Part shown: positions 26,138 to 40,520 of the stretch, piece after piece
Layout: each line of letters starts with the position of its first letter
Position numbering within the stretch: position 1 is the first letter of the stretch
Assembly (NCBI RefSeq): GCF_036898465.1
Contig: NZ_JARUMJ010000001.1
Span: 372,001-436,000, forward strand
Source: Streptomyces sp. B21-105
GTDB taxonomy: Bacteria; Actinomycetota; Actinomycetes; Streptomycetales; Streptomycetaceae
DNA: 64,000 bases
Reading direction: 5' to 3'
Program-made: the position numbers and the translations under genes
The notes under the pieces: model-generated
What the model saw: only the letters and a program-made list of their open reading frames with translations
What the model was told of the DNA's origin: nothing
Database searches by the model: none

Positions 26138-26250
26138 CCCGCGGACCCAGGCCGCCGGGCCGCGCCCCGGCAGTACGCCGTCTCGATGGACGATACGAAG
26201 CTGTCCATCATGCGAACACCCTCTTGGGAGAAGCGCGCACTTCTGCCACG

Positions 26251-26282
26251 ATCCCTATCAGCCAGGTAGGAATACTAGGGAT
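26251..26282. promoter_or_regulatory. inverted repeat ATCCCTA...TAGGGAT before the leader peptide
   Basis: ATCCCTA (26251-26257) and TAGGGAT (26276-26282) are exact inverted copies 18 bases apart; a nested CCTA-N9-TAGG pair lies at 26254-26270. The right half is part of the element shared with 24793-24803. It ends twelve bases before the leader-peptide ATG, so it may be an operator or overlap the promoter. Confidence 0.45.
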
Positions 26283-26294
26283 CAGGGGGTGGCC

Positions 26295-26432
26295 ATGAGT
26301 TCGTTCGACCGCACCGGCCGGGCGCTGCCCCTGCTGACCTCGCGCCGTCACATCGACTTCGGCCGCACCTCCAGCGCCTTCTGTCGGCCCGTCCGACACC
26401 ACAGCAGCTGCACTTCTCGCCACCAGCGCTGA
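26295..26432 (+). CDS. sulfur-operon leader peptide
   Basis: A 45-residue peptide starting at ATG 26295, with the core TSRRHIDFGRTSSAFCR at residues 15-31. I know this RRHxDxGRxSSAxC core from short leader peptides that precede sulfate, cysteine and sulfonate uptake operons in Streptomyces. It contains two cysteines (residues 30 and 39). It stands about 200 bases upstream of ssuA, long enough for attenuation structures. Likely role: ribosome stalling or pausing on the leader reports cysteine supply and sets expression of the transporter. The mechanism here is inference. Confidence 0.75.
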   Translation: MSSFDRTGRALPLLTSRRHIDFGRTSSAFCRPVRHHSSCTSRHQR

Positions 26433-26635
26433 ACTCCCGTCCGGCTCGCCGCACTCGGCGCGCCGGGCGCCCCCGGCTCGCCGCTCCCCCCACTCCCCCG
26501 CGCTCCGCCGCCCGGCCCGCCACGGCTCCTGTGCCGTCGAAGGCCGGGAGGCGGTGTGCCGGCGCACGCGGAAGGCCGTCGCCCCGACCCACCCGCAACG
26601 CTCCGCTCTCTCCGTTCCCCTGAAAGGACACCGCC

Positions 26636-27742
26636 GTGTCTGCCGCAAGACCGCTCGCCGCACTGCGCGCCCTCGCCGCCCTCGCCGCCCTGCCTCTCCT
26701 GCTCACCGCCTGCGGCTACGGGTCCGAGGCCACCGACGGTGACAAGCAGACCCCGGTGGCGGCGGGCGCCAAGAAGCTCTCCGCCGACGAGGTCAGCATC
26801 GGCTACTTCCCCAACCTGACGCATGCCACCGCCCTGGTGGGCGTCCAGGAAGGCCTGTTCCAGAAGGAGCTCGGCGGCACCACGATCAAGGCGTCCACCT
26901 TCAACGCCGGCCCCTCCGAGATCGAGGCGCTGAACGCCGGTTCCATCGACATCGGCTGGATCGGCCCCTCCCCGTCCATCAACGGGTACACCAAGTCCCA
27001 GGGCAAGAACCTGCGCATCATCAGCGGTTCGGCGTCCGGCGGGGTGAAGCTGGTGGTCGACCCCGAGAAGATCAAGACCCTGGACGACGTCAAGGGCAAG
27101 AAGATCGCCACCCCGCAGCTCGGCAACACCCAGGACGTCGCGTTCCTCAACTGGATCGCGGAGAAGGGCTGGAAGGTCGACGCACAGAGCGGCAAGGGCG
27201 ACGTCTCCGTCGTCCGCACCGACAACAAGATCACCCCGGACGCCTACAAGTCCGGCTCCATAGACGGTGCCTGGGTGCCCGAGCCCACCGCGTCCAAGCT
27301 GGTCAGCGAAGGCGCCAAGGTGCTGCTGGACGAGTCGACGCTGTGGCCGGACAACAAGTTCGTGATCACGAACATCATCGTGTCGCAGAAGTTCCTCAAG
27401 GAGCACCCCGACGTCGTCGAGGCCGTGCTGCGCGGCTCGGTGAAGACCAACGAGTGGATCAACGCCAACCCCGACAAGGCGAAGGCGTCCGCCAACACGG
27501 CGCTGAAGAAGCTGTCGGGCAAGGCGCTGCCCGCCGACATCCTCGACCCGGCCTGGAAGTCCATCGCCTTCCTCGACGACCCGCTGGCCGCCACGCTCGA
27601 CACCGAGGCGCAGCACGCCGTCAAGGCCGGTCTGCTGGACAAGCCCGACCTGAAGGGCATCTACGACCTCAGGCCGCTCGACAAGGTCCTCAAGGCCGCG
27701 GGCAAGCCCGAGGTCAGCGACGCCGGGCTCGGCGTCGAGTAG
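26636..27742 (+). CDS. ssuA: aliphatic sulfonate ABC transporter, substrate-binding lipoprotein
   Basis: The product (368 aa) has a lipoprotein signal with lipobox LLTAC at about residue 24 and a type II periplasmic binding fold of the SsuA/TauA class (EVSIGYFPNLTHATALVGVQ, EIEALNAGSIDIGWIGPSPS, GAWVPEPTASKLV). It captures alkanesulfonates or taurine for import. The GTG at 26636 is preceded by GAAAGGA. It heads the ssuABC operon downstream of the leader peptide. The symbol follows the class; the exact sulfonate is unknown. Confidence 0.88.
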   Translation: MSAARPLAALRALAALAALPLLLTACGYGSEATDGDKQTPVAAGAKKLSADEVSIGYFPNLTHATALVGVQEGLFQKELGGTTIKASTFNAGPSEIEALNAGSIDIGWIGPSPSINGYTKSQGKNLRIISGSASGGVKLVVDPEKIKTLDDVKGKKIATPQLGNTQDVAFLNWIAEKGWKVDAQSGKGDVSVVRTDNKITPDAYKSGSIDGAWVPEPTASKLVSEGAKVLLDESTLWPDNKFVITNIIVSQKFLKEHPDVVEAVLRGSVKTNEWINANPDKAKASANTALKKLSGKALPADILDPAWKSIAFLDDPLAATLDTEAQHAVKAGLLDKPDLKGIYDLRPLDKVLKAAGKPEVSDAGLGVE

Positions 27743-27786
27743 CGGAAGAAACCACCCGCCCGTACAGCTCCCAGGAGGTGACGACC

Positions 27787-28584
27787 ATGGCCGCCACGAT
27801 CGCCCAGGCTGCCGAGAACGCCACGGCGGCGACCCACGCCGCCCGCATCGCGCACGTCTCGAAGTCCTTTCCCGTCCCCGGCGCTCCCGGCGGACAGCAG
27901 CTCGTGCTGGACGACATCACCCTCGATGTCGCACCCGGCGAGTTCGTCACCCTCCTGGGAGCCTCCGGCTGCGGCAAGTCCACGCTGCTCAACCTGGTCG
28001 CGGGCCTGGACCGGCCGACCGCCGGCTCGATCGCCACGGACGGCCGGCCCGCCCTGATGTTCCAGGAGCACGCCCTGTTCCCGTGGCTGACCGCGGGCAA
28101 GAACATCGAACTCGCCCTCAAACTGCGGGGGATCGCCGCACCCGAACGCCGTCAGGAGGCGGAACGGCTCCTGGACCTCGTCCGGCTTCGGGGCGCGCAC
28201 GGCAAGCGCGTGCACGAACTCTCAGGCGGGATGCGCCAGCGCGTGGCCCTGGCCCGTGCGCTGGCCCAGGACAGCCGGCTGCTGCTGATGGACGAACCGT
28301 TCGCGGCCCTCGACGCCATCACCCGTGACGTGCTGCACGACGAACTGACCCGTATCTGGCGCGAGACGGGACTGTCGGTGCTGTTCGTGACGCACAACGT
28401 GCGGGAGGCCGTGCGCCTCGCCCAGCGGGTGGTGCTCCTGTCCTCCCGGCCGGGGCGCATCGCCCGCGAGTGGACGATCGGCATTCCGCAGCCGCGCCGC
28501 ATCGAGGACAGCGCGGTCGCCGAGCTGTCCGTCGAGATCACCGAAGAACTGCGCAGGGAGATCCGCCGACATGGCCAGCACTGA
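27787..28584 (+). CDS. ssuB: aliphatic sulfonate ABC transporter, ATPase
   Basis: A 265-residue ABC ATPase: Walker A GASGCGKST, Q-loop MFQEHALFPWLT, signature LSGGMRQRVALARAL, Walker B LLLMDEPFAALD and switch His in LFVTHNVREA. These match the nitrate/sulfonate/taurine subfamily. CAGGAGG precedes the ATG at 27787, 44 bases after ssuA. Its end overlaps the permease start by 14 bases, implying coupled translation. Confidence 0.92.
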   Translation: MAATIAQAAENATAATHAARIAHVSKSFPVPGAPGGQQLVLDDITLDVAPGEFVTLLGASGCGKSTLLNLVAGLDRPTAGSIATDGRPALMFQEHALFPWLTAGKNIELALKLRGIAAPERRQEAERLLDLVRLRGAHGKRVHELSGGMRQRVALARALAQDSRLLLMDEPFAALDAITRDVLHDELTRIWRETGLSVLFVTHNVREAVRLAQRVVLLSSRPGRIAREWTIGIPQPRRIEDSAVAELSVEITEELRREIRRHGQH

Positions 28585-29506
28585 CACCGGCGCCACCGGC
28601 TCCACCGTCGGCGACGACGGCCGCCCGGCGACCGGGGAACCCCGTGACCCGCACGACCTGACGGGGCTCGAGGCCGGACTCGACGCGCTGGAGACGGTGC
28701 AGACCTCTCGTACGCCGCTGCGCGAGACCCTGCTGCGCAAGGTGCTGCCGCCCGTCACCGCCGTCGTGCTGGTCCTGGCCCTCTGGCAGTTGCTGGTGTG
28801 GTTCGAGGTCGCCCCCGACTACAAGCTGCCCTCGCCGGCCGACGTGGGCAGCGAGATCCGCGACGCCTGGTTGCAGGGCACCCTGCTCGACTACATCTGG
28901 ACCAGCGTCTCGCGGGGGCTGCTCGGCTTCCTCCTGGCGCTCGTCATCGGCACCCCGCTGGGCCTGCTGGTCGCCCGGGTGCGGTTCGTCCGGGCGGCCA
29001 TCGGCCCCGTCCTGTCGGGACTGCAGTCCCTGCCGTCGGTGGCCTGGGTGCCGCCCGCCGTGATCTGGCTCGGCCTGGACGACTCGATGATGTACGCCGT
29101 GATCCTGCTCGGCGCGGTGCCGTCCATCGCCAACGGTCTGGTGGCGGGCGTCGACCAGATCCCGCCGCTGTTCCTGCGGGCCGGACGCACCCTGGGCGCG
29201 ACCGGGCTGCGCGGAGCCTGGCACATCGTGATGCCGGCGGCGCTCCCCGGCTATCTGGCGGGTCTGAAGCAGGGCTGGGCGTTCGCCTGGCGGTCGCTGA
29301 TGGCCGCCGAGATCATCGCCTCGTCGCCCGATCTGGGCGTCGGTCTCGGTCAGCTGCTGGAGAACGGACGCAGCAACTCGAGCATGCCGCAGGTGTTCCT
29401 GGCCATCTTCCTGATCCTGCTCGTCGGTGTCGCCATCGACCTGCTGATCTTCAGCCCGCTGGAGCGACGGGTCCTGCGCGGCCGGGGTCTGCTGGTCTCC
29501 CGTTGA
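28571..29506 (+). CDS. ssuC: aliphatic sulfonate ABC transporter, permease
   Basis: The product (311 aa) is a BinPDT1-type permease with about six membrane helices and the cytoplasmic EAA loop (FLRAGRTLGATGLRGAWHIV then LPGYLAGLKQGWAFAW). The first 60 residues are a soluble Thr/Asp-rich extension. It overlaps ssuB by 14 bases. The gene ends only 17 bases from the stop of the convergent lipoprotein gene at 29524, with no obvious terminator between them. Confidence 0.92.
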   Translation: MASTDTGATGSTVGDDGRPATGEPRDPHDLTGLEAGLDALETVQTSRTPLRETLLRKVLPPVTAVVLVLALWQLLVWFEVAPDYKLPSPADVGSEIRDAWLQGTLLDYIWTSVSRGLLGFLLALVIGTPLGLLVARVRFVRAAIGPVLSGLQSLPSVAWVPPAVIWLGLDDSMMYAVILLGAVPSIANGLVAGVDQIPPLFLRAGRTLGATGLRGAWHIVMPAALPGYLAGLKQGWAFAWRSLMAAEIIASSPDLGVGLGQLLENGRSNSSMPQVFLAIFLILLVGVAIDLLIFSPLERRVLRGRGLLVSR

Positions 29507-29523
29507 CCGGAAGGACGTCCACG

Positions 29524-30759
29524 TCACCCCGGGCCGGCGCAGAGCTTGTCACGGGGAACGGGGGAACTGCCCAGCTGCTCCTGGACCTGGTCGAGATCCC
29601 CTAGGTACCGGTCCGGGTCCGTCGTCGTGGCGGTCGCGTAGTCGAGGACCGCCCGGTAGAAGGCGGCCGACACGTCGGGCGTCATCGCGTCGGCGGCGCC
29701 GAAGCACAGGGTGTAGCCGGAGCTCGGTCGGAGCATCTGGGCTATCCGCTGCTGCACCGAGGTGGCGTAGCGGGTGACGTGACTGTCGGCGGAGAAGGCC
29801 GCGCCCGCCGCCTGGTCCACCCACAGCTGCTGGGCTTTCGTCCCGGCGAGGAAGGCGATGAACGCCTCGGCGCTCGGGTTGTCGTCGGTGAACATGCCGA
29901 CGAAGTCCGCCGAGACCTCCAGTCGGCGGGTACGGGAGGAGGTCACGAAGTCGTGGGCGTGTCCCTTGTCGAACCCCATGGCGGACAGCGCGCCGTGCGC
30001 GAGGGAGCACCTGGGGGGCGTCGTGGTCATTCCCGCGGCCGCCTCGCCGAAGTTGCGGACGGCCGCGCCCTTCACGCCGGCGCCCATGAGAGCACGCCAG
30101 GTGGTCCACGCCTCGTCGACCTGGGGCGTTCTCCATTTCTCGGTGCCGGCCAGCCACTTCGTGTAGAAGTCGGATCCGGTCCGGGCGAGGAGGATGTCCG
30201 CGATCCAGTCCGCGCCCGGCCAGCCGGAGGTGGGTCCGGACTCCAGTCCCAGACACCAGATCCCGGGCGTGCCGAGATCGGGCGGCGCGGACCGTCCGGT
30301 CGTCGCCTTCGCGAACCAGGCGAGGCTCTTGACGTCCACCTTGACGGGCACCGCGTAGACCTTGCCCCGCACGGTGGCCAGCCCGCGGAACGGCTCCAGA
30401 TAGGCGCCGGTGGGCACGTCGAGCGGCTGCAGTGTCCGTTCCTTCCCGTTCCCCCGCTGCGCGTAGCCGTGGACGGCTCCCACGCTCGGCAGCATGGCGA
30501 GGTCGGGCGGCGCCCCGGCCGTCACGGCGGCGTCGAGCTGCTGGGTCAGGGCTCGGGTGACCTGGACGTCCACCTGGATGCCGGTCTCCTTCTCGAACGC
30601 CGTGAGAACCGCGTAGAAGGCCTGGAACTCGTCACCCGACCAGGGGATCATGATCGTCACGCGGTCGGGCCGGGACGCGTCGCCGCAGCCGGCCGCGGCC
30701 AGCAGCAGGCCGAGGACCAGGACCCAGCGCGTGAGCCGCGCCGTCAGCGTCTGCTTCAT
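29524..30759 (-). CDS. solute-binding lipoprotein of the kinase-sensor operon (GlnH-like role)
   Basis: The product (411 aa) has a lipoprotein signal (LVLGLLLAAAGC, Cys at about residue 25) and an extracellular solute-binding family 1 fold (VTIMIPWSGDEFQAFYAVLT, TAGAPPDLAMLPSVG, RGKVYAVPVKVD, SAEAFIAFLAGTKAQQLWV). That fold usually binds sugars or oligosaccharides. No permease gene accompanies it; instead it is the last gene of an operon with a membrane protein, VWA protein, PknG-like kinase and protease. Its ATG overlaps the preceding stop (ATGA). By analogy with mycobacterial GlnH, it probably acts as the external ligand receptor of the sensor. Confidence 0.85.
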   Translation of the reverse strand: MKQTLTARLTRWVLVLGLLLAAAGCGDASRPDRVTIMIPWSGDEFQAFYAVLTAFEKETGIQVDVQVTRALTQQLDAAVTAGAPPDLAMLPSVGAVHGYAQRGNGKERTLQPLDVPTGAYLEPFRGLATVRGKVYAVPVKVDVKSLAWFAKATTGRSAPPDLGTPGIWCLGLESGPTSGWPGADWIADILLARTGSDFYTKWLAGTEKWRTPQVDEAWTTWRALMGAGVKGAAVRNFGEAAAGMTTTPPRCSLAHGALSAMGFDKGHAHDFVTSSRTRRLEVSADFVGMFTDDNPSAEAFIAFLAGTKAQQLWVDQAAGAAFSADSHVTRYATSVQQRIAQMLRPSSGYTLCFGAADAMTPDVSAAFYRAVLDYATATTTDPDRYLGDLDQVQEQLGSSPVPRDKLCAGPG

Positions 30760-31718
30760 GGGCGCGGGAACCTGTACTCGGAGAGACGGGGACGGTAGCC
30801 GAGGTAGGCGAGCACCGCGGCGACGGCGAGCAGGCCCAGGGTGAGCGTGGTGGTCAGCCAGTGTCCGAGCAGCGGGGTCTGGTGCAGGGCCAGGGTGTCG
30901 CGTCGGCCGAGCCGGCTGGCGGTGATCCCGACCGCCGCGGTGGCGGCCAGGGCGGCGACCAGGCGCAGGCCGACGAAGCGCCGGAAGCGCCGGGCGAGTA
31001 CGTACCCGGTCGCGAGGACGCACCCGAGCATGACGGCCGTCGGCCCGACGAGCAGGGAGCGGACGTAGACCGGGTTCAGCCAGCGCGACCGCTTCTGCGC
31101 GTCGAGGGCCTCGTTCTGCAGGTCCTTCAGGTCGGTGAGGGACGCCGTGAGTCCGCCCGTGCCGGGGATCCATTTCCCCGTCCGCGGGTCCTTCGCCCGG
31201 GGAGCGGTCAGCGCCAGCCGGGCGGAGTCGAGGACGCCGGGGCCGCTGCGCGCGTAGTCGCGCACCGCCGTGTTGGCCAGCTGCAGACAGGTGGTCAACT
31301 GGCTCTGGACGTACTCGAACTGGGTGCGTCCCCGGTTGCCCGCCGCGTTGCCCGCGGCCGCCGACGTGACGAGGGTGTTCACCCGTGCGGTGTCGTTGGC
31401 GAACTCGGTGCCCGTGCCGATGAGCGTGACCTGCCGGGTGGCGGCGACCTCGGCGAGCGCCGCCTCCGCCGCCACTGCCGTACCGCGGGCCTGCTCGATG
31501 TCCGCGACGGCGGCCTCGGTGCGTCGGGCGGCGGCCATCTGGTCTCCGGCCTGCGCCGACACCAGCAAATAGAGCAGCGCCGTGGCCGCCACCATGGCGA
31601 GTACGCCCGCTCTGAGCCACCGCAGCACTGCGACGGGGTGGACAGCCCGCACCCGTCGGCGCCCGTCGGACGCCCTCTCACGCAGGGACCGCCGGGACCG
31701 GCCGGCCGTGGCGCTCAC
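30756..31718 (-). CDS. four-helix membrane signal transducer (GlnX-like)
   Basis: A 320-residue membrane protein. A basic cytoplasmic N-terminus is followed by a helix at about residues 38-55, then an extracytoplasmic, mostly alpha-helical domain of about 150 residues with Ala/Glu/Thr heptad-like stretches (resembling a chemoreceptor sensor domain). Three further helices (about 205-225, 232-252, 280-300) end in a short cytoplasmic tail. This layout is that of mycobacterial GlnX, which links the lipoprotein GlnH to PknG. It starts at a GTG overlapping the VWA stop and overlaps the lipoprotein start by four bases. I identify it by architecture and context, not by strong sequence recall. Confidence 0.7.
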   Translation of the reverse strand: MSATAGRSRRSLRERASDGRRRVRAVHPVAVLRWLRAGVLAMVAATALLYLLVSAQAGDQMAAARRTEAAVADIEQARGTAVAAEAALAEVAATRQVTLIGTGTEFANDTARVNTLVTSAAAGNAAGNRGRTQFEYVQSQLTTCLQLANTAVRDYARSGPGVLDSARLALTAPRAKDPRTGKWIPGTGGLTASLTDLKDLQNEALDAQKRSRWLNPVYVRSLLVGPTAVMLGCVLATGYVLARRFRRFVGLRLVAALAATAAVGITASRLGRRDTLALHQTPLLGHWLTTTLTLGLLAVAAVLAYLGYRPRLSEYRFPRP

Positions 31719-33193
31719 GAGGCGTCCGCCGGTCCGCCGCCCGGCGCGTCCACTCTCGCGTCGAGGCTGTGGCCGCACGCCTCGCAGAACCGCGCCGAGC
31801 GGGTGGACGGCGTAGTGCCGCACCGGGGGCAGCGGCGGACGGCGTCGTGGCCGTCGGCCGTCGGCAGGTGCACCGCGTCGACGGGCGGGGCCACGGTCCT
31901 GGTCGAGTCGAGTCCCAGTCGTTGCACCTGACCGCGGGAGACGTCGCGGCGCATCTGCGGCAGGCCGTCGGGGCCGTCGACCGACACCGAGCGCAGCAGT
32001 CGCAGGCGCGCGGTGTCGCGGAGTTCCTCGGCCAGCCGTATCGCGATGCGCAGTTCCCGGTCGGCGCGTTCGCGTAGCCCCTTCTGGTGGGCGTCGGCGC
32101 AGGCCCGCATCGCCATGCCCAGTTCGTGCTCGTTCTCCACGCGGGTGAGGTCGGCGGACGGCGGGATGTCGAACCCGGGTGTCCCGCGCCGCCGCACCAC
32201 CATGGCCCGCGGCTCGCTGCACGGCGCGCGGGTCCCGTCGCTCTGCTCGCAGTGCAGCGTGATGCTGGCGGCGCGCAGGTCCTCCTCGACGGTCAGCGCG
32301 TCGGGGTCGTAGCGCAGGGACACCTGGTACTGGCGGGTTTCCGGCGGCCAGGCGCCGAGCGGGACGTGGATCTCGTCGCCGTGCTGCCGACGGGCCGTCA
32401 GCTCCGACTCCACGGGGCGTGTCTGGCGTACGAAGCCAAGCCGGAACCGGCTGTTGAGGCGCAGGCCGAGGTAGACACGGGGTACGACGATGCGCTGGGC
32501 GTGCCGCATGGTCCGGGTGAAGTCCCCTGCGAGGTCGGAGGCGGTAACGACGGCTTCGGCGTTGCCGTGCAGAGCCTGGGTGATCCTCAGCAGCTCCGCG
32601 TAGTTCCAGTCGTCGCCGAGCCCCCGGGCGTCGCAGACGAACCGGTCGGCGCACGACTCCAGGACGCTGCCCAGTTGTTCGGGTGTCTCGTGTTCGTCCT
32701 TGCCGTCCGTGTAGAGCACCGCGTGGCGGACGACGCCGGGCGAGGCCGCCGCCGCGAAGAGGCGGTCCGCGCAGGCCAGCCACCGGCCGATCGCCGTGCC
32801 GCCCTCGGCCAGCTGGCCGATGATCCGGCTCTTGGCCTCCTGCCGGGCGCCGGCGTCCACCGTCGCGAGGCCGCCGGTGGCGGGGAAGACGACCTCGGCC
32901 TCGTGATGGCCCGCGACGATGCCGACGAGGGTCCCGTCCCGCAGGGCGTCTACGGCCGCGCACAGGGCGCGTTTGGCCTCGTCCAGCTTGCCGTGCCCGG
33001 CCATGGACAGCGACTTGTCCATGATGAGGACCACGGCGGTCTGCGTCCGCGACGCCTGCCCGTCGACCGGGCGGGCCCGGACGGTGACGAGGGCGTCGGC
33101 GCGCGTCCCGTCGTGGGCCAGGTCGGCAGGTGCGTCCACGTCCACGTCGAAGCTGAGCCCTGTCAACGGCGGCCTGTCCCCCACCGGCACCAC
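31715..33193 (-). CDS. von Willebrand factor A protein with C-terminal zinc ribbon
   Basis: The product (492 aa) has a VWA domain with an intact MIDAS metal site (DKSLS, Asp59-x-Ser61-x-Ser63) in the first 230 residues. A beta-rich middle region follows (about 240-340), then a helical region with ENEHELGMAMRACADAHQKG, and a C-terminal zinc ribbon (Cys455, Cys458, Cys470, Cys473). It is cytoplasmic by appearance and probably a scaffold or an interaction partner of the kinase or protease. Two adjacent GTG codons (33193, 33190) could start it; neither has a strong ribosome site. A 100-bp gap with CGTATGCC repeats separates it from the kinase gene. Confidence 0.85.
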   Translation of the reverse strand: MVPVGDRPPLTGLSFDVDVDAPADLAHDGTRADALVTVRARPVDGQASRTQTAVVLIMDKSLSMAGHGKLDEAKRALCAAVDALRDGTLVGIVAGHHEAEVVFPATGGLATVDAGARQEAKSRIIGQLAEGGTAIGRWLACADRLFAAAASPGVVRHAVLYTDGKDEHETPEQLGSVLESCADRFVCDARGLGDDWNYAELLRITQALHGNAEAVVTASDLAGDFTRTMRHAQRIVVPRVYLGLRLNSRFRLGFVRQTRPVESELTARRQHGDEIHVPLGAWPPETRQYQVSLRYDPDALTVEEDLRAASITLHCEQSDGTRAPCSEPRAMVVRRRGTPGFDIPPSADLTRVENEHELGMAMRACADAHQKGLRERADRELRIAIRLAEELRDTARLRLLRSVSVDGPDGLPQMRRDVSRGQVQRLGLDSTRTVAPPVDAVHLPTADGHDAVRRCPRCGTTPSTRSARFCEACGHSLDARVDAPGGGPADAS

Positions 33194-33293
33194 CCGACTG
33201 TGTCCCCTGTGTCCCCGTGATCCGGGCTTCCCGTGCGTCTCCGTATGCCGGTGCGTATGCCCGTGGGCATCCCCGTATGCCGTGCGTAGCGAC

Positions 33294-35486
33294 TCAGGAG
33301 CTTAGCGTGTCGGGTCCCGCTCCGACACGGGAACGACCGGTTCGCCTGCGAAGCGCCGGCCACCGCCAGTCGAGCGGCGGGCGCAGCCGGTTCGCGAGGT
33401 CCACCAGGGCCACGTAGGCGCGTTCGGTGGCAGCGTGCGCACCGAGCCCGCGGACGGCTTCCGACAGCCGCAGCCGGTCGTGGGCGCGCAGGAACTCGGC
33501 GTACTGGATCTCCGCCTCGAGGCCGGCGGCCGCGGCGTCGTCCACGTGGAGGCCGTCCAGCGCCCCGCGAGCGCCCGCCAGGTCGTCGGGCGCAGGCGGG
33601 GCGGACGGGGTCTGTCGGGCGGGGACGGTGACGAGCAGGCGGATGACCGCGACCCGCGCCTCGCGCTCGTAGCGGAACTCCTGGGTGAGCCGTTCGGCGA
33701 CGGCCACGGCTTCCGCGCGCCGGCCGGACAGCAGGTGCACCCGGGCCAGCCCGAAGCCGGCCGCGCCGAGCGCGGGCGTGGTGTCGAAGACGGTGCCGTA
33801 GTGCGAGCGGGCGACCTCACGGTCGTCGCGGAACTCGGCGCACAGGCCGAGCGCGAGCTGCGGGATCAGCTCCCCCGGCAGGGCCCGGCGCACCTCGGTG
33901 AAGTGGCCGGCGGCTCTGGGCACGTCCTCGCGGGCGAGCGCGATCAGGCCGCGGTACCAGGCATGCAGCCAGTGCCAGTCGGGCAGTCCCGCGCGCGTGA
34001 GCGCCCGTGCGGCCCGGGTGACGTCACCGCGCCGCAGCGCGAGCCGGCTCTCGGCCAGCGCGTTCGTGGCCGGGTCGCCGATGTTCGGATCGTCGGGGTC
34101 GGACAGGGGTGTGGGGAGGGCGCCCGCCATGTCGCGGGGGCCCGGGCAGGAGAACGGCGCGGGCAGGGTCAGCAGGGCGTCCCCGGTCACGGTCGCCCGG
34201 ACCCAGTGGTCGAGAGGACGCGCCGCGCCCAGCCCGCCGTGCAGGGGCTCGGTCATCGAGCCGAACAGCGCCGAGGGCCGGGCGACCTGCCGGCCGGCCG
34301 GCGGCGCGGCCACGATCTGCCGGACCACTCCGCTGAGCTGCTCGCCGAACTGGCGTGCCGAAACGAATCTCCGCTCGGGCACGTCGATGTCCGTGGCACG
34401 GTCCAACAGCAGCATCAGCGAGTCCGCTCCCGGCGCCGCCCGGTCGGCGCCGTGTGCGCGGCACACCTCCCGCAGGGTCATGCCGAGGCCGTACAGGTCG
34501 AATCCGGGCGTGGGCTTCACATGCTCGGGGTCGTCCTCGGGGGGCGCGTACGCCTTGGTGTAGGCGACGATCGGCCCGGCCTCCTCCTGGGAGCGCACCG
34601 CGCCGAAGTCGATGAGCCGCACCCGGTCCAGCGGTCGGGCGGAGCCCGCGGAGCCCTCCTCCCGGAACCTGATGACGTTCAGGGGTTTGACGTCGCAGTG
34701 CAGCAGCCCCCTGGCGTGCAGGTAGTCGAGTGCCTGGAGGATGCGGACGCCGTGCGCGAGCAGCGTCTCGAGGCGGTCTCCGTCGCGCGCCGACAGGGCG
34801 ACGCCCGGCACGTACTCGAGCACGAGGTGGGGTCCCTCGGGTTCGTAGCCGAGGATGCGGACGATGCTGTCGTGCCGGAGCCCGACCAGCACGTCCCGCT
34901 CGTGCTCGGCCGTCCTGGCCACCGACCGGTTCAGCGCCTTGAGGACCACCTGAGTCTCGAGGTTGCGGTCGTGTGCGAGGTACGCGGCGCCGTAGGCCCC
35001 GGAGCCGAGGACCCGCTCGACGTCGTAGCGGCCGGCGATGGTGAGGCCCTGCGGCTGGGCGAAGTCGAAGCGGGTTCCGCAGTGCGCGCAGAAGCCCGCG
35101 GTGCGGCCGGGCTCCTCGCCGTGCCCTCGGCCCACCGGCTGCCCGCAGACGGGGTTCGCGCAGAACCGGTGCTCCTCGGCGACCGGACCCGCCGCGGGGA
35201 GCGGCGGGTCGGGGAGATCGGCGGCGAGGCCGGAATCGATCAGGCCGAGGCCGTACCAGGGGTCCGGGCGCACCGGCGCCACACCGACGCCGACGCCCCG
35301 TACCTGTTCGGCGCCCCCCGCTGAGCCGGCGCCGACGCTCCCCGCCGCGCCGGCGCGCTGTTCCGGAGCCGCACCGGCGGGCGAGGCGGCGTGCTCCCGC
35401 GGCAGCGGGCGCCGGTCGCACACCGGGCAGAAACCCTCGCCGTCGATCTCGCCCAGGCCGCAGTCGGGGCGGTTGCACCTCAGCAC
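33294..35486 (-). CDS. PknG-like serine/threonine protein kinase with zinc fingers and TPR domain
   Basis: The 730-residue product has the PknG layout. A zinc-binding N-terminus carries two four-cysteine sites (Cys4/Cys9/Cys20/Cys23 and Cys109/Cys114/Cys133/Cys136). The kinase domain follows (glycine loop GSGAYGAAY from 161, Lys183, catalytic HCDVKPLN with Asp265, DFG 293-295), then a helical TPR-type C-terminal half from about residue 430. The catalytic loop has HCD rather than HRD, a non-RD kinase like PknG. It starts at GTG 35486, four bases after the protease stop. In mycobacteria PknG is soluble, senses amino-acid supply via GlnH/GlnX and controls 2-oxoglutarate metabolism through GarA/OdhI. 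Confidence 0.88.
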   Translation of the reverse strand: MLRCNRPDCGLGEIDGEGFCPVCDRRPLPREHAASPAGAAPEQRAGAAGSVGAGSAGGAEQVRGVGVGVAPVRPDPWYGLGLIDSGLAADLPDPPLPAAGPVAEEHRFCANPVCGQPVGRGHGEEPGRTAGFCAHCGTRFDFAQPQGLTIAGRYDVERVLGSGAYGAAYLAHDRNLETQVVLKALNRSVARTAEHERDVLVGLRHDSIVRILGYEPEGPHLVLEYVPGVALSARDGDRLETLLAHGVRILQALDYLHARGLLHCDVKPLNVIRFREEGSAGSARPLDRVRLIDFGAVRSQEEAGPIVAYTKAYAPPEDDPEHVKPTPGFDLYGLGMTLREVCRAHGADRAAPGADSLMLLLDRATDIDVPERRFVSARQFGEQLSGVVRQIVAAPPAGRQVARPSALFGSMTEPLHGGLGAARPLDHWVRATVTGDALLTLPAPFSCPGPRDMAGALPTPLSDPDDPNIGDPATNALAESRLALRRGDVTRAARALTRAGLPDWHWLHAWYRGLIALAREDVPRAAGHFTEVRRALPGELIPQLALGLCAEFRDDREVARSHYGTVFDTTPALGAAGFGLARVHLLSGRRAEAVAVAERLTQEFRYEREARVAVIRLLVTVPARQTPSAPPAPDDLAGARGALDGLHVDDAAAAGLEAEIQYAEFLRAHDRLRLSEAVRGLGAHAATERAYVALVDLANRLRPPLDWRWPALRRRTGRSRVGAGPDTLSS

Positions 35487-35490
35487 GGCG

Positions 35491-37194
35491 TCACCCTTCG
35501 TCGATCCGGCGGTTGACCTCGTCGGCGTGGAGCCGGACCAGTCTGCGGGCGGCCGCGAGGTCGATCGGCACGGTCTGCAGCGCGCGGGCCGCGGGGGCGT
35601 GCAGCTCGGCGAGCCGCCGGTCCTCCTCGCCGAAGAACCGCGCCGCGCGCACCCGGTGCAGTTCGAGGCTGGTGCCGAGGTCCGCGTGGTCCTCGACCAG
35701 CCGCCGCAGCGCCCGGTCGAACGCGGCGACCTCGGCGCGGGCTTCGTGGGCGCGGTCGCGGACGGCGGTGAGCTCGGGGTTGGGCTCGGTGGTCCGGGCG
35801 ACGGCCAGCCGGATCCGCAGGCGGGGTGCGGCGCTGCGCGGCGGGCGGGGCGCGCCGAAGAACTTCCCGCCCCACCGCGCCCACAGCCGCGCCGCGGCCT
35901 CCTCCTCGGCGGCGAGCTGTCCGACCGCCGTCTGCGCCTGGCCCGAGGTCACGTTCGCGGTGGCGGCCGGTCCGACGACGGGCGCGGGGTCGAGGGACAC
36001 GTCATGGGCGAGGTCCGCCGGGGGCCGGTCCTCGAAACCGAGCACGAGACGCAGGCCGCTCGAGCGGGCCCGGCGAGCCAGCGGCCCCAGCAGATCCCGT
36101 AACAGTGCGTCCGGGTCCGCCGCCCGGTCGACGCGGCCCACCACCAGGCACGCGGGAGGCCGACGGCGCGCCAGCCGGCGGACCGCCTCCCGGTCGCCGT
36201 CCGCGCGGAGCCCGAACCGGCCCGTCAGGTACCGGCGCACCTCGGCGACCGACCTGCCGCCGGCGTCGTACGCCGCGTCGATGGAGCCGAGTCCCAGCAC
36301 GGTGTCCCCGGGGGCCCCGGTCAGCTCGGCGTCGGACACGGTCACGCGGGCCGCCGGGTCGGCCGTGCGCACCAGCCGCACCAGCCACGAGGAGCCCGCG
36401 CCGACGGAGGCGTCGGTGCCGACGACGACGGTGCCCGACCAGTCGCCGTCGAGCAGTCGCGTGAGTTCCTGGGTGAGCGCGAGACGCAGCGGGTCGTGCA
36501 GCACGTCCTGGGGCAACTCGCCGCCGGCCGGCCCCAGTTCGTCGGTGCGGTGGCCGCCGGTGAACTCCTTGATGCTCGGCAGGTACGTCAGCAGCGTCTC
36601 GGTCGGCAGCATCCAGGCCGCGCGGGCGTCGCCGTTGACGTAGTCGGCCACCACGATGCCGATGACGCTGCCCTTGAACTCGCCGTCCAGCGCGATGACT
36701 CCGGCGCCGGAGTAGCCCGCCTCGATCCACGGGTCACCGGCGCGGATCTGCCTCAGCAGTCCCCATTCGCCCTCCCGGCCGCCGGAACCGGCCAGCTCGG
36801 CGTCGGTCGCGATGCCGTAGGGCTCGGCCTGCGGGAAGCCGTACACCCGCACCCTGCCGCCGGAGATCGGCACCTTCCACAGGGTGGTCCTGGTCGCGCA
36901 GTCGACCGGCTCGTCGAGTGCGAGCAGCGCCACGTCGCCGCGCCGTGTGCCGTGCTCGTGCACCCACGATCCGGGGACCACGCGCGCGCTGCGCGTCCAC
37001 TCCGGACTGCACGCCACGCTCCTGATGCGTACGCAGGACGCCGTGCCCTCCGGTTGCGCTCCCGCGTACCGGACGACATGCGCGCAGGTCAGCACATGCC
37101 GGTCGTCGAGGAGCACCCCGGCACCGCACGGAGCCCCACCCTCGTCGTCCACCCTCACCCGCCACGCGTTCTCGCTGTGGTGATGCAGCGCCAT
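35491..37194 (-). CDS. trypsin-like serine protease fused to an NTPase-like and coiled-coil region
   Basis: The first gene of the operon (567 aa) starts with a chymotrypsin-fold protease without signal peptide: His39 (LTCAHVV), Asp87 (RGDVALL) and Ser162 (GYSGAG) form a complete catalytic triad. Residues 230-410 resemble a degenerate P-loop NTPase (VVVGTDASVGAGSSWLVRLV, later ACLVVGRVDRA). The last 150 residues are strongly helical and charged. Codon 365 is TTA (36102-36100), so translation probably needs the bldA tRNA. Cytoplasmic trypsin-like proteases fused to NTPase-like modules occur in bacterial signalling and conflict systems. The substrate is unknown; the neighbouring kinase or VWA protein are candidates. 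Confidence 0.82.
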   Translation of the reverse strand: MALHHHSENAWRVRVDDEGGAPCGAGVLLDDRHVLTCAHVVRYAGAQPEGTASCVRIRSVACSPEWTRSARVVPGSWVHEHGTRRGDVALLALDEPVDCATRTTLWKVPISGGRVRVYGFPQAEPYGIATDAELAGSGGREGEWGLLRQIRAGDPWIEAGYSGAGVIALDGEFKGSVIGIVVADYVNGDARAAWMLPTETLLTYLPSIKEFTGGHRTDELGPAGGELPQDVLHDPLRLALTQELTRLLDGDWSGTVVVGTDASVGAGSSWLVRLVRTADPAARVTVSDAELTGAPGDTVLGLGSIDAAYDAGGRSVAEVRRYLTGRFGLRADGDREAVRRLARRRPPACLVVGRVDRAADPDALLRDLLGPLARRARSSGLRLVLGFEDRPPADLAHDVSLDPAPVVGPAATANVTSGQAQTAVGQLAAEEEAAARLWARWGGKFFGAPRPPRSAAPRLRIRLAVARTTEPNPELTAVRDRAHEARAEVAAFDRALRRLVEDHADLGTSLELHRVRAARFFGEEDRRLAELHAPAARALQTVPIDLAAARRLVRLHADEVNRRIDEG

Positions 37195-37305
37195 CCCTCA
37201 ACAGTATGGCAACTCCCGCCCCAGGGGCCCGAGATGGCACGATCGCGGTGGCCGCCCCGGGAAACGCGGGCCGCGGCGAGGCGGGACAGGCGCCGGACCG
37301 GTCCT

Positions 37306-37381
37306 CATCCGCCGTCCGCACTCGCATCCGCCGTCCGCACTCGCATCCGACGTCCGTGGCCTCATCCGACGTCCGTGGCCT
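37306..37381. repeat. four 19-bp tandem repeats
   Basis: CATCCGCCGTCCGCACTCG occurs at 37306-37324 and 37325-37343, then the variant CATCCGACGTCCGTGGCCT at 37344-37362 and 37363-37381. The fourth copy contains the stop codon of the Rieske gene. The array lies between the convergent-looking 3' end of that gene and the start of the protease operon, whose promoter must be in or beside it. Confidence 0.9.
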
Positions 37382-38288
37382 CGTCCTCGTGCCGTGTTCC
37401 GTCCCGCAGACGGATCTCCACGTGGCCGTCGACGACGCGGGTGTCGAAGGCGGGCTGGGGCGCGGTCGCGGGGCCGCGCACGTTCAAGCCGTCCGACAGC
37501 CGGAAGACGCTGCCGTGCCAGGGGCACGTGACGCAGCCGTCCGCGACGGCGCCCTCGGACAGGGGTCCCGAGAGGTGGCTGCACCGCTCGGTCAGCGCGT
37601 GGATCGTCCCGCCCGGCTCCCGCACCACCACGACCGGGACGTCGTCCACGGCGCGCCGTACGGGCCGTCCGGCCGGAAAGTCGGCCACCGCGCCGACGCG
37701 GTGCCAGCCCGGGGTGACGACGTGCGGCACCTCTTCCGCGTGGTTGGCGCCCGAGGCCTGGCGGTAGGCCAGGTGACCGCCCAGCATGCCGCCCAGCCCG
37801 GCCGCCGTCAGGCCGAGGAACCCGAGGGTCCGGCCCCGCGCCGTGCGTCCGGTGACGCGGCACACGAGCGAGGCGCTGTACAGGCCGACAGCGGCCGTGT
37901 TGGTCAGGGCGTGCACCAGCCCGACGCGTTGCTGCTGTCGGTGCAGTTCCGCCCAGTCGACCGCGCCGGTGAGCACGGCGGGAGCGGCGGCGGCCAGCCC
38001 GACGCCGACGAGGAGCCCCGCCCCGCGGGTGTGGCCGGGGCTCAGGTCCAGCACCGCCGCGGACACCCAGCTGCCGATCGGCACCTGCACCGCGAGCGGA
38101 TGCACGGGGTGCCCCAGCCACAGGCCGTGCAGGATGTCACGGCCCTGCCCCAGGGGCAGGGACCGGACGCCCTTGCCGAGCACGTCGATGACCCCGTCCG
38201 CCCAGGTCGCACGCTCGAGGCCGTCCAGCAGCCGCAGGGCCCGGTTCTGCCGCATACGGCGATGAGAAGGCATGGTGCTCATGCGCAC
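37362..38288 (-). CDS. membrane protein with DUF2231 region and C-terminal Rieske [2Fe-2S] domain
   Basis: The product (308 aa) has a DUF2231-type membrane part (HPVHPLAVQVPIGSWVSAAV, about four helices to residue 180) and then a Rieske domain with CSHLSGPLSEGAV ... CPWHGSVF as cluster ligands, ending in an acidic tail. Such fusions are common in Streptomyces and presumably pass electrons at the membrane; partners are unknown. I chose GTG 38288 because AGGAGGGAG lies about seven bases upstream; ATG 38282 is the alternative. Its 3' end lies in a tandem repeat. Confidence 0.85.
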   Translation of the reverse strand: MRMSTMPSHRRMRQNRALRLLDGLERATWADGVIDVLGKGVRSLPLGQGRDILHGLWLGHPVHPLAVQVPIGSWVSAAVLDLSPGHTRGAGLLVGVGLAAAAPAVLTGAVDWAELHRQQQRVGLVHALTNTAAVGLYSASLVCRVTGRTARGRTLGFLGLTAAGLGGMLGGHLAYRQASGANHAEEVPHVVTPGWHRVGAVADFPAGRPVRRAVDDVPVVVVREPGGTIHALTERCSHLSGPLSEGAVADGCVTCPWHGSVFRLSDGLNVRGPATAPQPAFDTRVVDGHVEIRLRDGTRHEDEATDVG

Positions 38289-38422
38289 CGGGTCTCCCTC
38301 CTGACCCACGGCAAACACCTCGCCGGCGAACCCGTCAGTGTGCCCGCGGCGGGATATAAGAAACAGATAAAGATCGTGGGCATGCGGGGCGTACGGCGGG
38401 GCACACGGCGGAACGGAGGTTG

Positions 38423-38599
38423 ATGACGATGGTTCCCTTGCTGCTGGTTCTTCTGCTCGCCCTGATCCTCTTCGGCGCCGGGTTCGCCCTCAAGGCGCTG
38501 TGGTGGATCGCCGTGATCGTCCTCGTGGTCTGGCTGGTCGGCTTCTTCGCCCGCTCGACCGGAGCGGGCGGGACACGGGGCCGCTGGTACCGCTGGTAG
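38423..38599 (+). CDS. small hydrophobic protein (58 aa)
   Basis: A 58-residue protein with two membrane helices (about residues 4-22 and 26-44) and a short basic, Trp/Arg-rich tail ending RGRWYRW. It starts at ATG 38423 after a GGAGG ribosome site. Small proteins of this type are annotated simply as hydrophobic protein in Streptomyces and are often stress-induced. It is divergent from the Rieske gene; the AT-rich patch near 38352-38370 between them may hold a promoter. Confidence 0.75.
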   Translation: MTMVPLLLVLLLALILFGAGFALKALWWIAVIVLVVWLVGFFARSTGAGGTRGRWYRW

Positions 38600-38651
38600 A
38601 GCGGGTCGGCACGGTCGGAACGACAGGTCGACAAGCACGACATGACATACG

Positions 38652-38689
38652 GGTGGGGCGCACCGGACAGGACACCGGTGCGCCCCACC
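38652..38689 (+). terminator. strong hairpin after the small hydrophobic gene
   Basis: Perfect 15-bp arms (GGTGGGGCGCACCGG / CCGGTGCGCCCCACC) with an 8-base loop, 52 bases past the stop. It should end transcription of the small hydrophobic gene and could work in both directions. Confidence 0.85.
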
Positions 38690-38769
38690 GGTATGTGCGC
38701 AGCAACCTCACCCGACGCTCACACACCTGTCCGTATCGCCGGCCGGACCGCGGGTAGGCGGCTGAGCAG

Positions 38770-38831
38770 CTCGGGGCCGGCGCCTGTGCCGGCAGGGAAC
38801 CCCGGCGCCTCCAACAGGCGCCGGCCCCGAG
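38770..38831. terminator. second strong hairpin, between convergent genes
   Basis: Perfect 18-bp arms (CTCGGGGCCGGCGCCTGT and its complement) enclose a 26-base loop. It lies just beyond the stop of the leftward gene at 38853 and serves as its terminator, insulating it from the hydrophobic gene. Confidence 0.85.
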
Positions 38832-38852
38832 TCATCGGCGTCGTCCCGTGGT

Positions 38853-39149
38853 TCAGGCGTTGACGTGACGGCGCACGGCCGTCGCCTTGCGCGGCGCGGC
38901 ATGGTGCGCCCGCTCGCTCGTCCGGGAAGGCCGCTGCCGGCCCAGCCACAGTGACGTCAGGGACAGCAGCCCCGCGAAGACCACCAGGAAGAACACCGAC
39001 ACCCACATCTGACGGCTCCCCGGGTCCTCCCTCCCCGTCCAGCCGGCCGACACGGCCCACAGGACGGCGCCGCCCGCGTAGACGGGGCGGATGCGCCGCA
39101 ACTGCCGCACGGCACGCACGGATTCAGCGTGATCGATTTTCGAAGCCAT
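38853..39149 (-). CDS. small membrane protein, unknown function
   Basis: A 98-residue protein with two hydrophobic segments (about residues 22-37 and 49-69) and a basic, Arg/His-rich C-terminus (RKATAVRRHVNA). The start at ATG 39149 (MASKIDHAES) has only a weak ribosome site. I do not recognise the family. It is bounded by a strong terminator on its 3' side and by a transposase relic beyond its promoter region. Bases 39150-39387 hold no recognisable gene. Confidence 0.6.
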   Translation of the reverse strand: MASKIDHAESVRAVRQLRRIRPVYAGGAVLWAVSAGWTGREDPGSRQMWVSVFFLVVFAGLLSLTSLWLGRQRPSRTSERAHHAAPRKATAVRRHVNA

Positions 39150-39387
39150 GTCCGCCCTGGTACCCCGATCCGCGCCCTCCACCGCGAGGACGCGGACGGG
39201 GTTTCGCCACACGCCCGGGCCGGCACCCGGGCGCGCGCCCGCCTCGCCGTGCCGTGCGGCCGCGGACGGGGCCCGGGACGGGGTGCCGACCCTGGGACGG
39301 GCACGCGTCTGCGGGAGCCGGGGGTCGGAGCTGCTCGGCTTGGAGTGTGCTCGAGAGCGTTCTGGTGAGTGGGAGTGAGTGTGGGTG

Positions 39388-39847
39388 GTCTGTGCGCACC
39401 GGCGCCTACGGTGCCGAGATCGCCCGTTTCCTGACCACACAGGGTGTCCCCGTCATCTCACCACGGCTGATCGCCCTGCCCGGCGTCGGCCCCGAGAGCG
39501 CGGGCCAGCTGCTGACCACCGTCGGCGACAACCCGGACCGCCTGCGCTCGGAAGCGTCCTTCGCCCACCTGTGCGGCGCCGCCCCGCTGCCGGCCTCCTC
39601 CGGCCGCACCAACCGGCACCGCCTCAACCGGGGCGGCGACCGCCAAGCCAACCGGGCCCTGCACACGATCGTGCTGGTCCGCATGCGCCACGACCAGCGC
39701 ACCCGCGAGTACGTCGCCAGACGCACCGCCGAAGGCATGACCAAGAAGGACATCATGCGCTGCTTGAAACGGTTCGTCGCCCGCGAGGTCTACCAGCATC
39801 TGCTCCGCCCGCACATCACCGCCGAACAGTTCAAGCAAGCCGCTTGA
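39388..39847 (+). pseudogene. IS110-family transposase relic with internal deletion
   Basis: The frame ending at TGA 39845-39847 matches the C-terminal Transposase_20 part of IS110-type transposases (LIALPGVGPESAGQLL, GDNPDRLRSEASFAHLCGAA, SSGRTNRHRLNRGGDRQANR, LKRFVAREVYQHL). Just before it, TGAYGAEIARFLTTQGVPV resembles the N-terminal DEDD-domain segment that is normally followed by about 150 more residues. So both the beginning and the middle of the transposase are missing and the pieces are fused in frame. No terminal repeats were found, as expected for IS110. Confidence 0.8.
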
Positions 39848-39887
39848 CGATCTATAGGAGCTTCTCCCGCTCAGTCTCTAGGAACGG

Positions 39888-40520
39888 TCAGAACCCCCGG
39901 TCGATCCAGTCCTGCAGATGCGGGGCCTCCGCCGCGACGGTCGTCGTCCCGCCGTGGCCGGTGTACACGGTCGTGTCGCCCGGCAGGGTCAGCAGCCGGT
40001 CCCGGATGGAGTCGACGATGGTCGGGAAGTCGCTGTACGACCTTCCGGTCGCTCCCGGCCCGCCGGCGAAGAGCGTGTCGCCGCTGAAGAGGGCCCCGAG
40101 GGCGGGTGCGTGCAGGCAGACCGCGCCCGGGGCGTGGCCCGGGGTGTGCAGCACGGTCAGCTCGACGCCGCCCACGGTGACGACCTGGCCGTCGACCAGC
40201 TCGCCGTCGGGGGACCGGTCGGGGTGGGTCTGCTTCCACAGCGGCAGGTCGTCGCCGTGCAGCAGGATCGGGGCGCCGGTGCGGTCCGCGAGTGCGGGCG
40301 CGGCGTCGATGTGGTCGTTGTGGGCATGGGTGCACACGATGGCCCGCAGGGTGCGCCCGCCGAGGGCGTCGGCGATGGCCTCGGCGTCGTGCGCGGCGTC
40401 GATGACCACCGCCTCCTCGGCGTCGCCGACGATCCACACGTTGTTGTCCACGTCCCAGACCCCGCCGTCCAGCGCGAACGTTCCCGAGGTGACGAGCCGT
40501 TCGATCGTGACGCCGGCCAT
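39888..40520 (-). CDS. metallo-beta-lactamase-fold hydrolase paired with mycothiol dehydrogenase
   Basis: A 210-residue metallo-hydrolase with the metal motif THAHNDHID (about residues 64-72), further ligands in HTPGHAPG and the FSGDTLF segment, and a late TGHGG. It belongs to the glyoxalase II-like group. It overlaps the end of the mscR gene by one base and is co-transcribed. The same pair occurs in mycobacteria (Rv2259-Rv2260), so it probably hydrolyses S-formylmycothiol to formate and mycothiol; that step is inferred. Confidence 0.87.
   Translation of the reverse strand: MAGVTIERLVTSGTFALDGGVWDVDNNVWIVGDAEEAVVIDAAHDAEAIADALGGRTLRAIVCTHAHNDHIDAAPALADRTGAPILLHGDDLPLWKQTHPDRSPDGELVDGQVVTVGGVELTVLHTPGHAPGAVCLHAPALGALFSGDTLFAGGPGATGRSYSDFPTIVDSIRDRLLTLPGDTTVYTGHGGTTTVAAEAPHLQDWIDRGF

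Follow-up and report, generated by a model that had tools for sequence, protein, structure and literature searches.

The closest described system is the GlnH-GlnX-PknG pathway of mycobacteria and corynebacteria (excerpts of PMC6069109, PMC9769921 and PMC8546545), which combines a lipoprotein, a four-helix-bundle membrane protein with an RLxEYR tail, and a PknG-type kinase with rubredoxin and tetratricopeptide repeat (TPR) parts. PknG is a soluble kinase whose external sensor is known, and the activation of bacterial Ser/Thr kinases is largely open ("an outstanding question" in the abstract of PMC6069109); a single sentence of that paper mentions other kinases linked to solute-binding proteins, and names SGR_4432 and SCO1468. 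All of these features of GlnH-GlnX-PknG recur in a five-gene operon of Streptomyces sp. B21-105, the subject of this report, which occupies bp 29524-37194 of the window (the whole 64,000-nucleotide stretch of DNA that was analysed, 372001-436000 of its 9.15-Mb contig in a genome of 9.21 Mb), with all five genes pointing leftward (minus strand). Homology of the parts, conservation of the operon, intact active sites and, in some relatives, protease and kinase in a single open frame are all observed. They are read here as an accessory, diverged pathway of the GlnH-GlnX-PknG type in which sensor and output have both changed and an external ligand would switch intracellular proteolysis, a reading to which we give an even chance. 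No open-licence paper describing a trypsin-PknG-VWA-GlnX-SBP cassette was found (one may exist in print elsewhere), nor any further open-licence paper with SCO1467, SCO1468, SCO1469 or SGR_4432; SGR_4432 and SCO1468, known from that mention only, are possibly members of the same wider group.

The operon and its conservation

The five open reading frames (ORFs) encode TRY, KIN, VWA, MEM and SBP, the last a solute-binding protein. TRY and KIN are separated by a 4-nt gap and KIN and VWA by a 100-nt gap, and VWA/MEM and MEM/SBP overlap by 4 bp each. The ORF coordinates and Pfam thus bear out the leftward operon that had been proposed from the sequence, with its gaps and overlaps. Its parts are as follows.

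35491..37194, minus strand: TRY, a cytosolic trypsin-like protein of 567 residues, with trypsin domain, alpha/beta segment and helical tail
36676..37125, minus strand: Trypsin_2 domain of TRY (PF13365, residues 24-173; Pfam), containing His39 and Ser162, with Asp87 in between
35503..35691, minus strand: C-terminal module of TRY, a relative of the coiled-coil (CC) protein encoded ahead of canonical pknG (hhalign and profile search)
33294..35486, minus strand: KIN, a PknG-like non-RD Ser/Thr kinase of 730 residues
35058..35195, minus strand: PknG_rubred zinc domain of KIN (PF16919, residues 98-143; Pfam)
34461..35027, minus strand: kinase domain of KIN (PF00069, residues 154-342; Pfam)
33618..34064, minus strand: PknG_TPR part of KIN (PF16918, residues 475-623; Pfam)
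31715..33193, minus strand: VWA protein of 492 residues, with metal ion-dependent adhesion site (MIDAS) and C-terminal zinc ribbon
30756..31718, minus strand: MEM, a GlnX-like membrane protein with a predicted single periplasmic four-helix bundle and four transmembrane helices
30771..30788, minus strand: RLSEYR, C-terminal motif of MEM, common to canonical GlnX
29524..30759, minus strand: SBP, a family-1 solute-binding lipoprotein in an operon without permease (Pfam, flank check)

The Pfam E-values are 9e-12 for Trypsin_2, 3.9e-26 for PknG_TPR, 6.1e-22 for Pkinase, 7.1e-14 for PknG_rubred, 5.3e-13 for VWA_3 and 1.2e-07 for SBP_bac_1; MEM has no Pfam match. No Rfam family reaches its gathering score in 26000-40000, and a promoter and terminator scan gave nothing above chance.

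Active sites were compared in an alignment of orthologues from the window's own lineage (clade A), the window included. The protease triad His39/Asp87/Ser162 is present in 28 of 28 clade-A TRY rows, and is also intact in 12 lineage-B, six lineage-D and five fused rows. Kinase residues K183, D265 and D293 occur in all 29 clade-A rows that reach that far (L014 is a fragment), as do the rubredoxin cysteines in 29 of 29 kinase rows, the MIDAS residues D59/S61/S63/T133/D163 in 29 of 29 VWA rows (with a reading error in one of them, L038) and the lipobox Cys25 in 31 of 31 SBP rows. KIN is of the non-RD type, with an HCD motif (HID in L037). The intact triad, the non-RD kinase, the intact MIDAS and the lipobox that had been noted in the window are therefore invariant across clade A, and the observation of a five-gene operon with intact active sites is confirmed.

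The MEM family numbers 67 members at E <= 0.001 among 7997 candidates scored, and its closest named relatives to the window protein are from Streptomyces (best 94% identity). Among the named genomes scanned there are 30 clade-A loci, 28 from Streptomyces, one from Actinacidiphila and one from a Nocardiopsis metagenome-assembled genome. The order TRY-KIN-VWA-MEM-SBP on a single strand is kept in 27 of the 30; in L014 and L022 a contig end truncates the operon, and L011 shows just KIN-MEM-SBP. The operon is a conserved cassette, so the five families are indeed neighbours elsewhere, the point on which the original prediction had staked its idea of a common system. Chance grouping is excluded because of this conserved order, and an accidental neighbourhood, or a lipoprotein that is the orphan part of a transporter, is scarcely conceivable. 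Family-1 binding proteins usually serve sugar importers, and an ATP-binding cassette (ABC) transporter lies next door (26636-29506, plus strand; NMT1-type binding protein, ATPase and permease), convergent with the operon. As a partner of SBP this transporter was rejected, however, since it comes with an NMT1-type binding protein of its own and is oppositely oriented, and no transporter gene recurs next to the operon among the gene clusters examined (heuristic gene calls).

Trees of the kinase and VWA proteins separate lineage A (the window), lineage B and lineage C (canonical) with 98-100% bootstrap. Lineage B was sampled as ten loci from other genomes, chosen by intermediate VWA scores (one by a GlnX piece); nine have the five-gene order and the tenth, L091, is KIN-MEM-SBP. 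With ten rows lineage B formed a single clade; with 16 further loci of B and D it no longer did, and the two lineages fall into a joint group (support 100/98).

A MEM profile built from lineages A and B (A4) was scored against 101 Streptomyces genomes, of which 57 match at E <= 0.001 and 34 at >= 114 bits, after which scores drop to <= 50 bits. Among the 34 weaker rows four are end pieces of strong matches, which leaves 30; 24 of these sit 7.0-9.1 kb from a canonical-type VWA match, as does glnX in the canonical locus described below, and six (G380, G334, G310 and three in G360) were not assigned to a locus. The weaker row of G171 overlaps the GlnX place. For 29 of these 34 strong genomes, that of the window and 28 others, the gene neighbourhood was read. 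KIN, MEM and SBP are present in all 29 (the L121 kinase is cut by a contig end), an adjacent TRY in 25 of the 28 that are readable for it, and VWA in 21 of 29; each of the five remaining strong genomes contains a lineage-A VWA of high score (692-956 bits). Lineage A itself occurs in seven of the 101 genomes (VWA score >= 450 bits). Across the class, A4 is matched at E <= 0.001 by 47 of the 296 genomes sampled, mostly weakly. Five genomes outside the window's genus score 83-107 bits (L128-L132), and the first of them has all five genes. L129, L130 and L131, from genomes of another family (f85), show a MEM-SBP pair, and the stretch read contains no related kinase; in L129 this stretch is cut short by a contig end.

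Relation to the canonical pknG locus

The genome of the window also contains a full-score GlnX (506 bits), which is part of a canonical locus of the order glnX - glnH - CC protein (445 residues, coiled-coil type) - pknG - PP2C - VWA - FHA.

L048 8450-19888 (G000:C1:3420449-3431887): canonical pknG locus of the same genome

The CC protein has no Pfam match. CC, PP2C, VWA and FHA genes are in the canonical locus of all five Streptomyces loci read; five loci of another family (f3) have, of the seven genes, only glnX-glnH-pknG, and one more distant genome has both halves of the set, facing each other. Because this locus is present in the same genome, the operon of the window is its diverged paralogue. 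The two share homologues of the kinase, VWA, MEM and the TRY tail, and in both a CC or TRY gene precedes the kinase gene; the canonical Streptomyces locus (L048 and four others) differs in having no trypsin domain, a family 3 binding protein, and PP2C and FHA genes. Canonical-locus VWA is 32% identical to that of the window. VWA is thus no addition to the chain, as the original prediction had it to be, whereas the trypsin domain is one. Likewise, the idea of an enlarged GlnH-GlnX-PknG chain holds as regards the conserved families and the relation to GlnX, but the operon is a paralogue, and the canonical locus lies elsewhere in the same genome. In one genome (L116 7843-18999), the accessory operon lies directly beside canonical-type FHA, VWA and PP2C genes, as if from tandem duplication.

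KIN scores 52 bits against PF16919 (cut-off 28.5) and 92 bits against PF16918 (cut-off 27), and is a PknG-type kinase on both. MEM is more distant from its counterpart: against the NCBIfam GlnX family NF058618 it reaches 15.4 bits (E 0.0078), below the curated 250-bit cut-off, and direct comparison of MEM with GlnX is too weak alone, so that homology was established via bridging relatives. Judged by sequence, MEM is a relative of GlnX and not a GlnX; the similarity on which the original prediction also depended is upheld by profile and by predicted fold. In the structure prediction a single long helical part lies outside the membrane, and the last two long helices are only some 10 residues apart, so that MEM is predicted to lack the second periplasmic four-helix bundle of GlnX. 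The RLxEYR tail that it shares with GlnX is found in 12 aligned GlnX sequences (IGEYR in one).

The lipoprotein differs as well. SBP belongs to family 1 (sugar type), as had been proposed, and its SBP_bac_1 match and the flank check agree with a family 1 binding lipoprotein that has no permease in its operon; GlnH of the same genome is of family 3 (SBP_bac_3). Against solved structures the SBP family profile finds sugar-binding proteins best. AcbH leads (1.3e-10), aligned over most of its length (profile positions 44-382 of 414); maltose- and chitin-oligosaccharide-binding proteins come next, for the most part along shorter segments, and iron-binding proteins rank lower (among the best 60 of 345 matches). 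The NCBIfam matches of SBP are carbohydrate-binding proteins far under cut-off. A sugar-like ligand is at most a fair guess from these matches. The lipoprotein family alignment has a strikingly conserved stretch around TSGWPG.DW (SBP residues 168-191), perhaps at the ligand cleft. A sugar-type binding protein together with a four-helix-bundle sensor is also found in the D-xylose sensor XylFII-LytS (PDB 5xsj), but LytS is a histidine kinase (according to an excerpt of PMC9769921), whereas MEM lacks any enzyme domain and goes with a Ser/Thr kinase.

In comparison with the canonical pathway, then, the carbohydrate-type lipoprotein, a GlnX shortened to one predicted four-helix bundle (GlnX has two) and the trypsin domain are new. 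The window operon further differs from GlnH-GlnX-PknG in its trypsin and VWA genes, in the absence of an FHA gene and in a KIN N-terminus without threonine. In PknG, phosphorylation of threonines in the N-terminal region stabilises its FHA substrate (PMC9769921, in part). Window KIN has no threonine in the 108 residues before its rubredoxin cysteines; eight of 29 clade-A kinases have none, and the clade-A mean is 2.7 against 9.7 in 11 canonical kinases, with count boundaries set by a simple cysteine rule. These counts bear on whether the operon might be a second metabolic switch, in which the kinase would phosphorylate a GarA/OdhI-type FHA protein and set 2-oxoglutarate dehydrogenase for another nutrient. 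The clear homology to PknG and to the canonical locus of the same genome would fit such a role, and some clade-A kinases do keep several N-terminal threonines (up to 12, in L038). Nevertheless, with no FHA gene in the operon, no such threonine in the window kinase and the protease left unexplained, a metabolic switch seems rather improbable.

The protease and its links to the kinase

TRY is a trypsin domain added in front of a relative of the CC protein. Pairwise hhalign aligns a 63-residue part of the TRY tail with the CC protein (1.5e-4), and the CC profile finds 20 of 28 single clade-A TRY sequences above threshold (best 1.4e-6, L037); the window TRY is the weakest of the 28, its E-value of 0.77 not being significant alone. 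In lineage B, tblastn links CC to the TRY region in two of ten loci (9.9e-10 in L088, 3.4e-8 in L093). In the reverse direction, a TRY profile from lineages A and B detects the CC protein at 46-60 bits in all six canonical loci that have one and nothing in the five that do not. In a locus of another family (L132 4337-11656), KIN-VWA-MEM-SBP is preceded by a short CC-like gene that scores 40 bits for TRY and 30 bits for CC and has no full trypsin match, and this arrangement likely represents the state before the trypsin domain was gained. The middle of TRY had been described as part of an NTPase-like tail. An alpha/beta segment is indeed predicted at residues 235-401, but a working NTPase was rejected, there being no lysine at the Walker-A place in any of 28 TRY rows. 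Fold searches with the whole TRY model were dominated by the trypsin domain and gave no identity for this middle part.

In five loci (L107, L108, L109, L111 and L112) a single open frame spans TRY and KIN, with the trypsin part leading, and VWA was not found there; a sixth single-frame protein (L133) came from the class-wide sample. The five form one clade (100/100), and when aligned all five keep the protease triad. Their kinase parts have diverged in all five rows, the catalytic-loop lysine K267 to S and the DFG glycine G295 to A, positions that are kept in six D, 15 B, 11 canonical and six A rows of the same alignment. The fused kinases may therefore be weak or non-catalytic, whereas the window kinase keeps its catalytic residues; possibly the fusions are a step towards a non-catalytic kinase that acts as a receiver.

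Two of these observations weigh against a kinase that gates the protease. The degenerate kinase residues of the fusions leave undecided whether gating needs phosphorylation, and four loci (L011, L091, L119 and L120) keep the KIN-MEM-SBP core without protease and VWA. The latter fits a protease that serves as a brake, which would tune or reset the sensor by trimming KIN, VWA or MEM rather than cleave cellular proteins on activation, while the targets of the kinase are the output: the protease is dispensable to the core, and proteolytic reset would make sense in an operon with no phosphatase gene. However, the protease is retained in nearly all readable loci and shares a frame with the kinase in six, and the fusions, in which the triad is intact and the kinase has lost two catalytic residues, are the opposite of what a brake predicts. 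We regard a brake as unlikely.

Directly after SBP, 26 of the 30 clade-A loci carry a short gene on the same strand, which in the two cases tested is Trypco1 by Pfam (7.5e-23 and 1.7e-21). It is missing from the window (tblastn), from L009, L011, L017 and L021, and from the ten lineage-B loci. In the kinase tree the window groups with L009 as its sister (100/99), so a single loss before their split would explain both of their absences. Two Trypco1 genes lie elsewhere in the genome of the window (G000:C1:3135241-3135531 and 6197575-6197877), and Trypco2 (PF19631) has no match in the whole genome.

Trypco1 owes its name to its frequent position next to trypsin domains in predicted conflict systems, and actinobacterial kinase-PP2C-vWA gene sets were noted in another class of such systems (Kaur et al. 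2020, PMC7159879, in part). The operon could accordingly be a defence system of the trypsin/Trypco type, in which the lipoprotein would sense an invader or competitor and the protease would release a damaging response. Like those systems it has a VWA protein and, in most clade-A loci, an intact-triad trypsin beside Trypco1, and its distribution is patchy. On the other hand, no MoxR, VMAP or GTPase is encoded among the five genes and the eight nearby ORFs scanned, the sensor is an external lipoprotein, Trypco1 is absent from the loci listed above, the window's included, and the PADLOC matches are generic kinase or protease similarity. A conflict system is thus quite improbable.

Proposed pathway and its meaning

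The preferred reading, an external ligand that switches intracellular proteolysis, would proceed as follows. The carbohydrate-type lipoprotein outside the cell would bind its ligand and press on the single four-helix bundle of the shortened GlnX; this protein would relay the change across the membrane to its cytoplasmic parts, which include the conserved RLxEYR tail, and the tail would contact the TPR half of KIN. KIN in turn would gate the trypsin-like protein encoded next to it, and VWA may serve as an adaptor joining kinase, protease or substrate. Going by homology, the steps from lipoprotein to GlnX-like protein to kinase should work as in GlnH-GlnX-PknG with a different ligand. For the last step a kinase-gated protease is favoured because the operon has no FHA gene, the window kinase has no N-terminal threonine, and the protease is beside the kinase or in frame with it. 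What we infer are the class of ligand, every contact, the mode of gating (phosphorylation or contact), the direction in which control runs and the substrate.

More generally, this may be a type of signalling in which a sugar-type lipoprotein and a four-helix transducer read an external ligand and control intracellular proteolysis via a PknG-family kinase, kinase and trypsin having evolved into one unit that in some species is a single polypeptide, its kinase maybe a non-catalytic contact gate; we put this somewhat short of an even chance. The family gives many natural variants of the wiring of PknG, with sensor and output exchanged. Its single-frame protease-kinase proteins make the link between kinase and protease directly testable, and the RLxEYR tail common to MEM and GlnX offers a concrete candidate for the contact between GlnX and PknG. 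In addition, this operon family ties the trypsin/Trypco1 module of predicted conflict systems to an external sensor.

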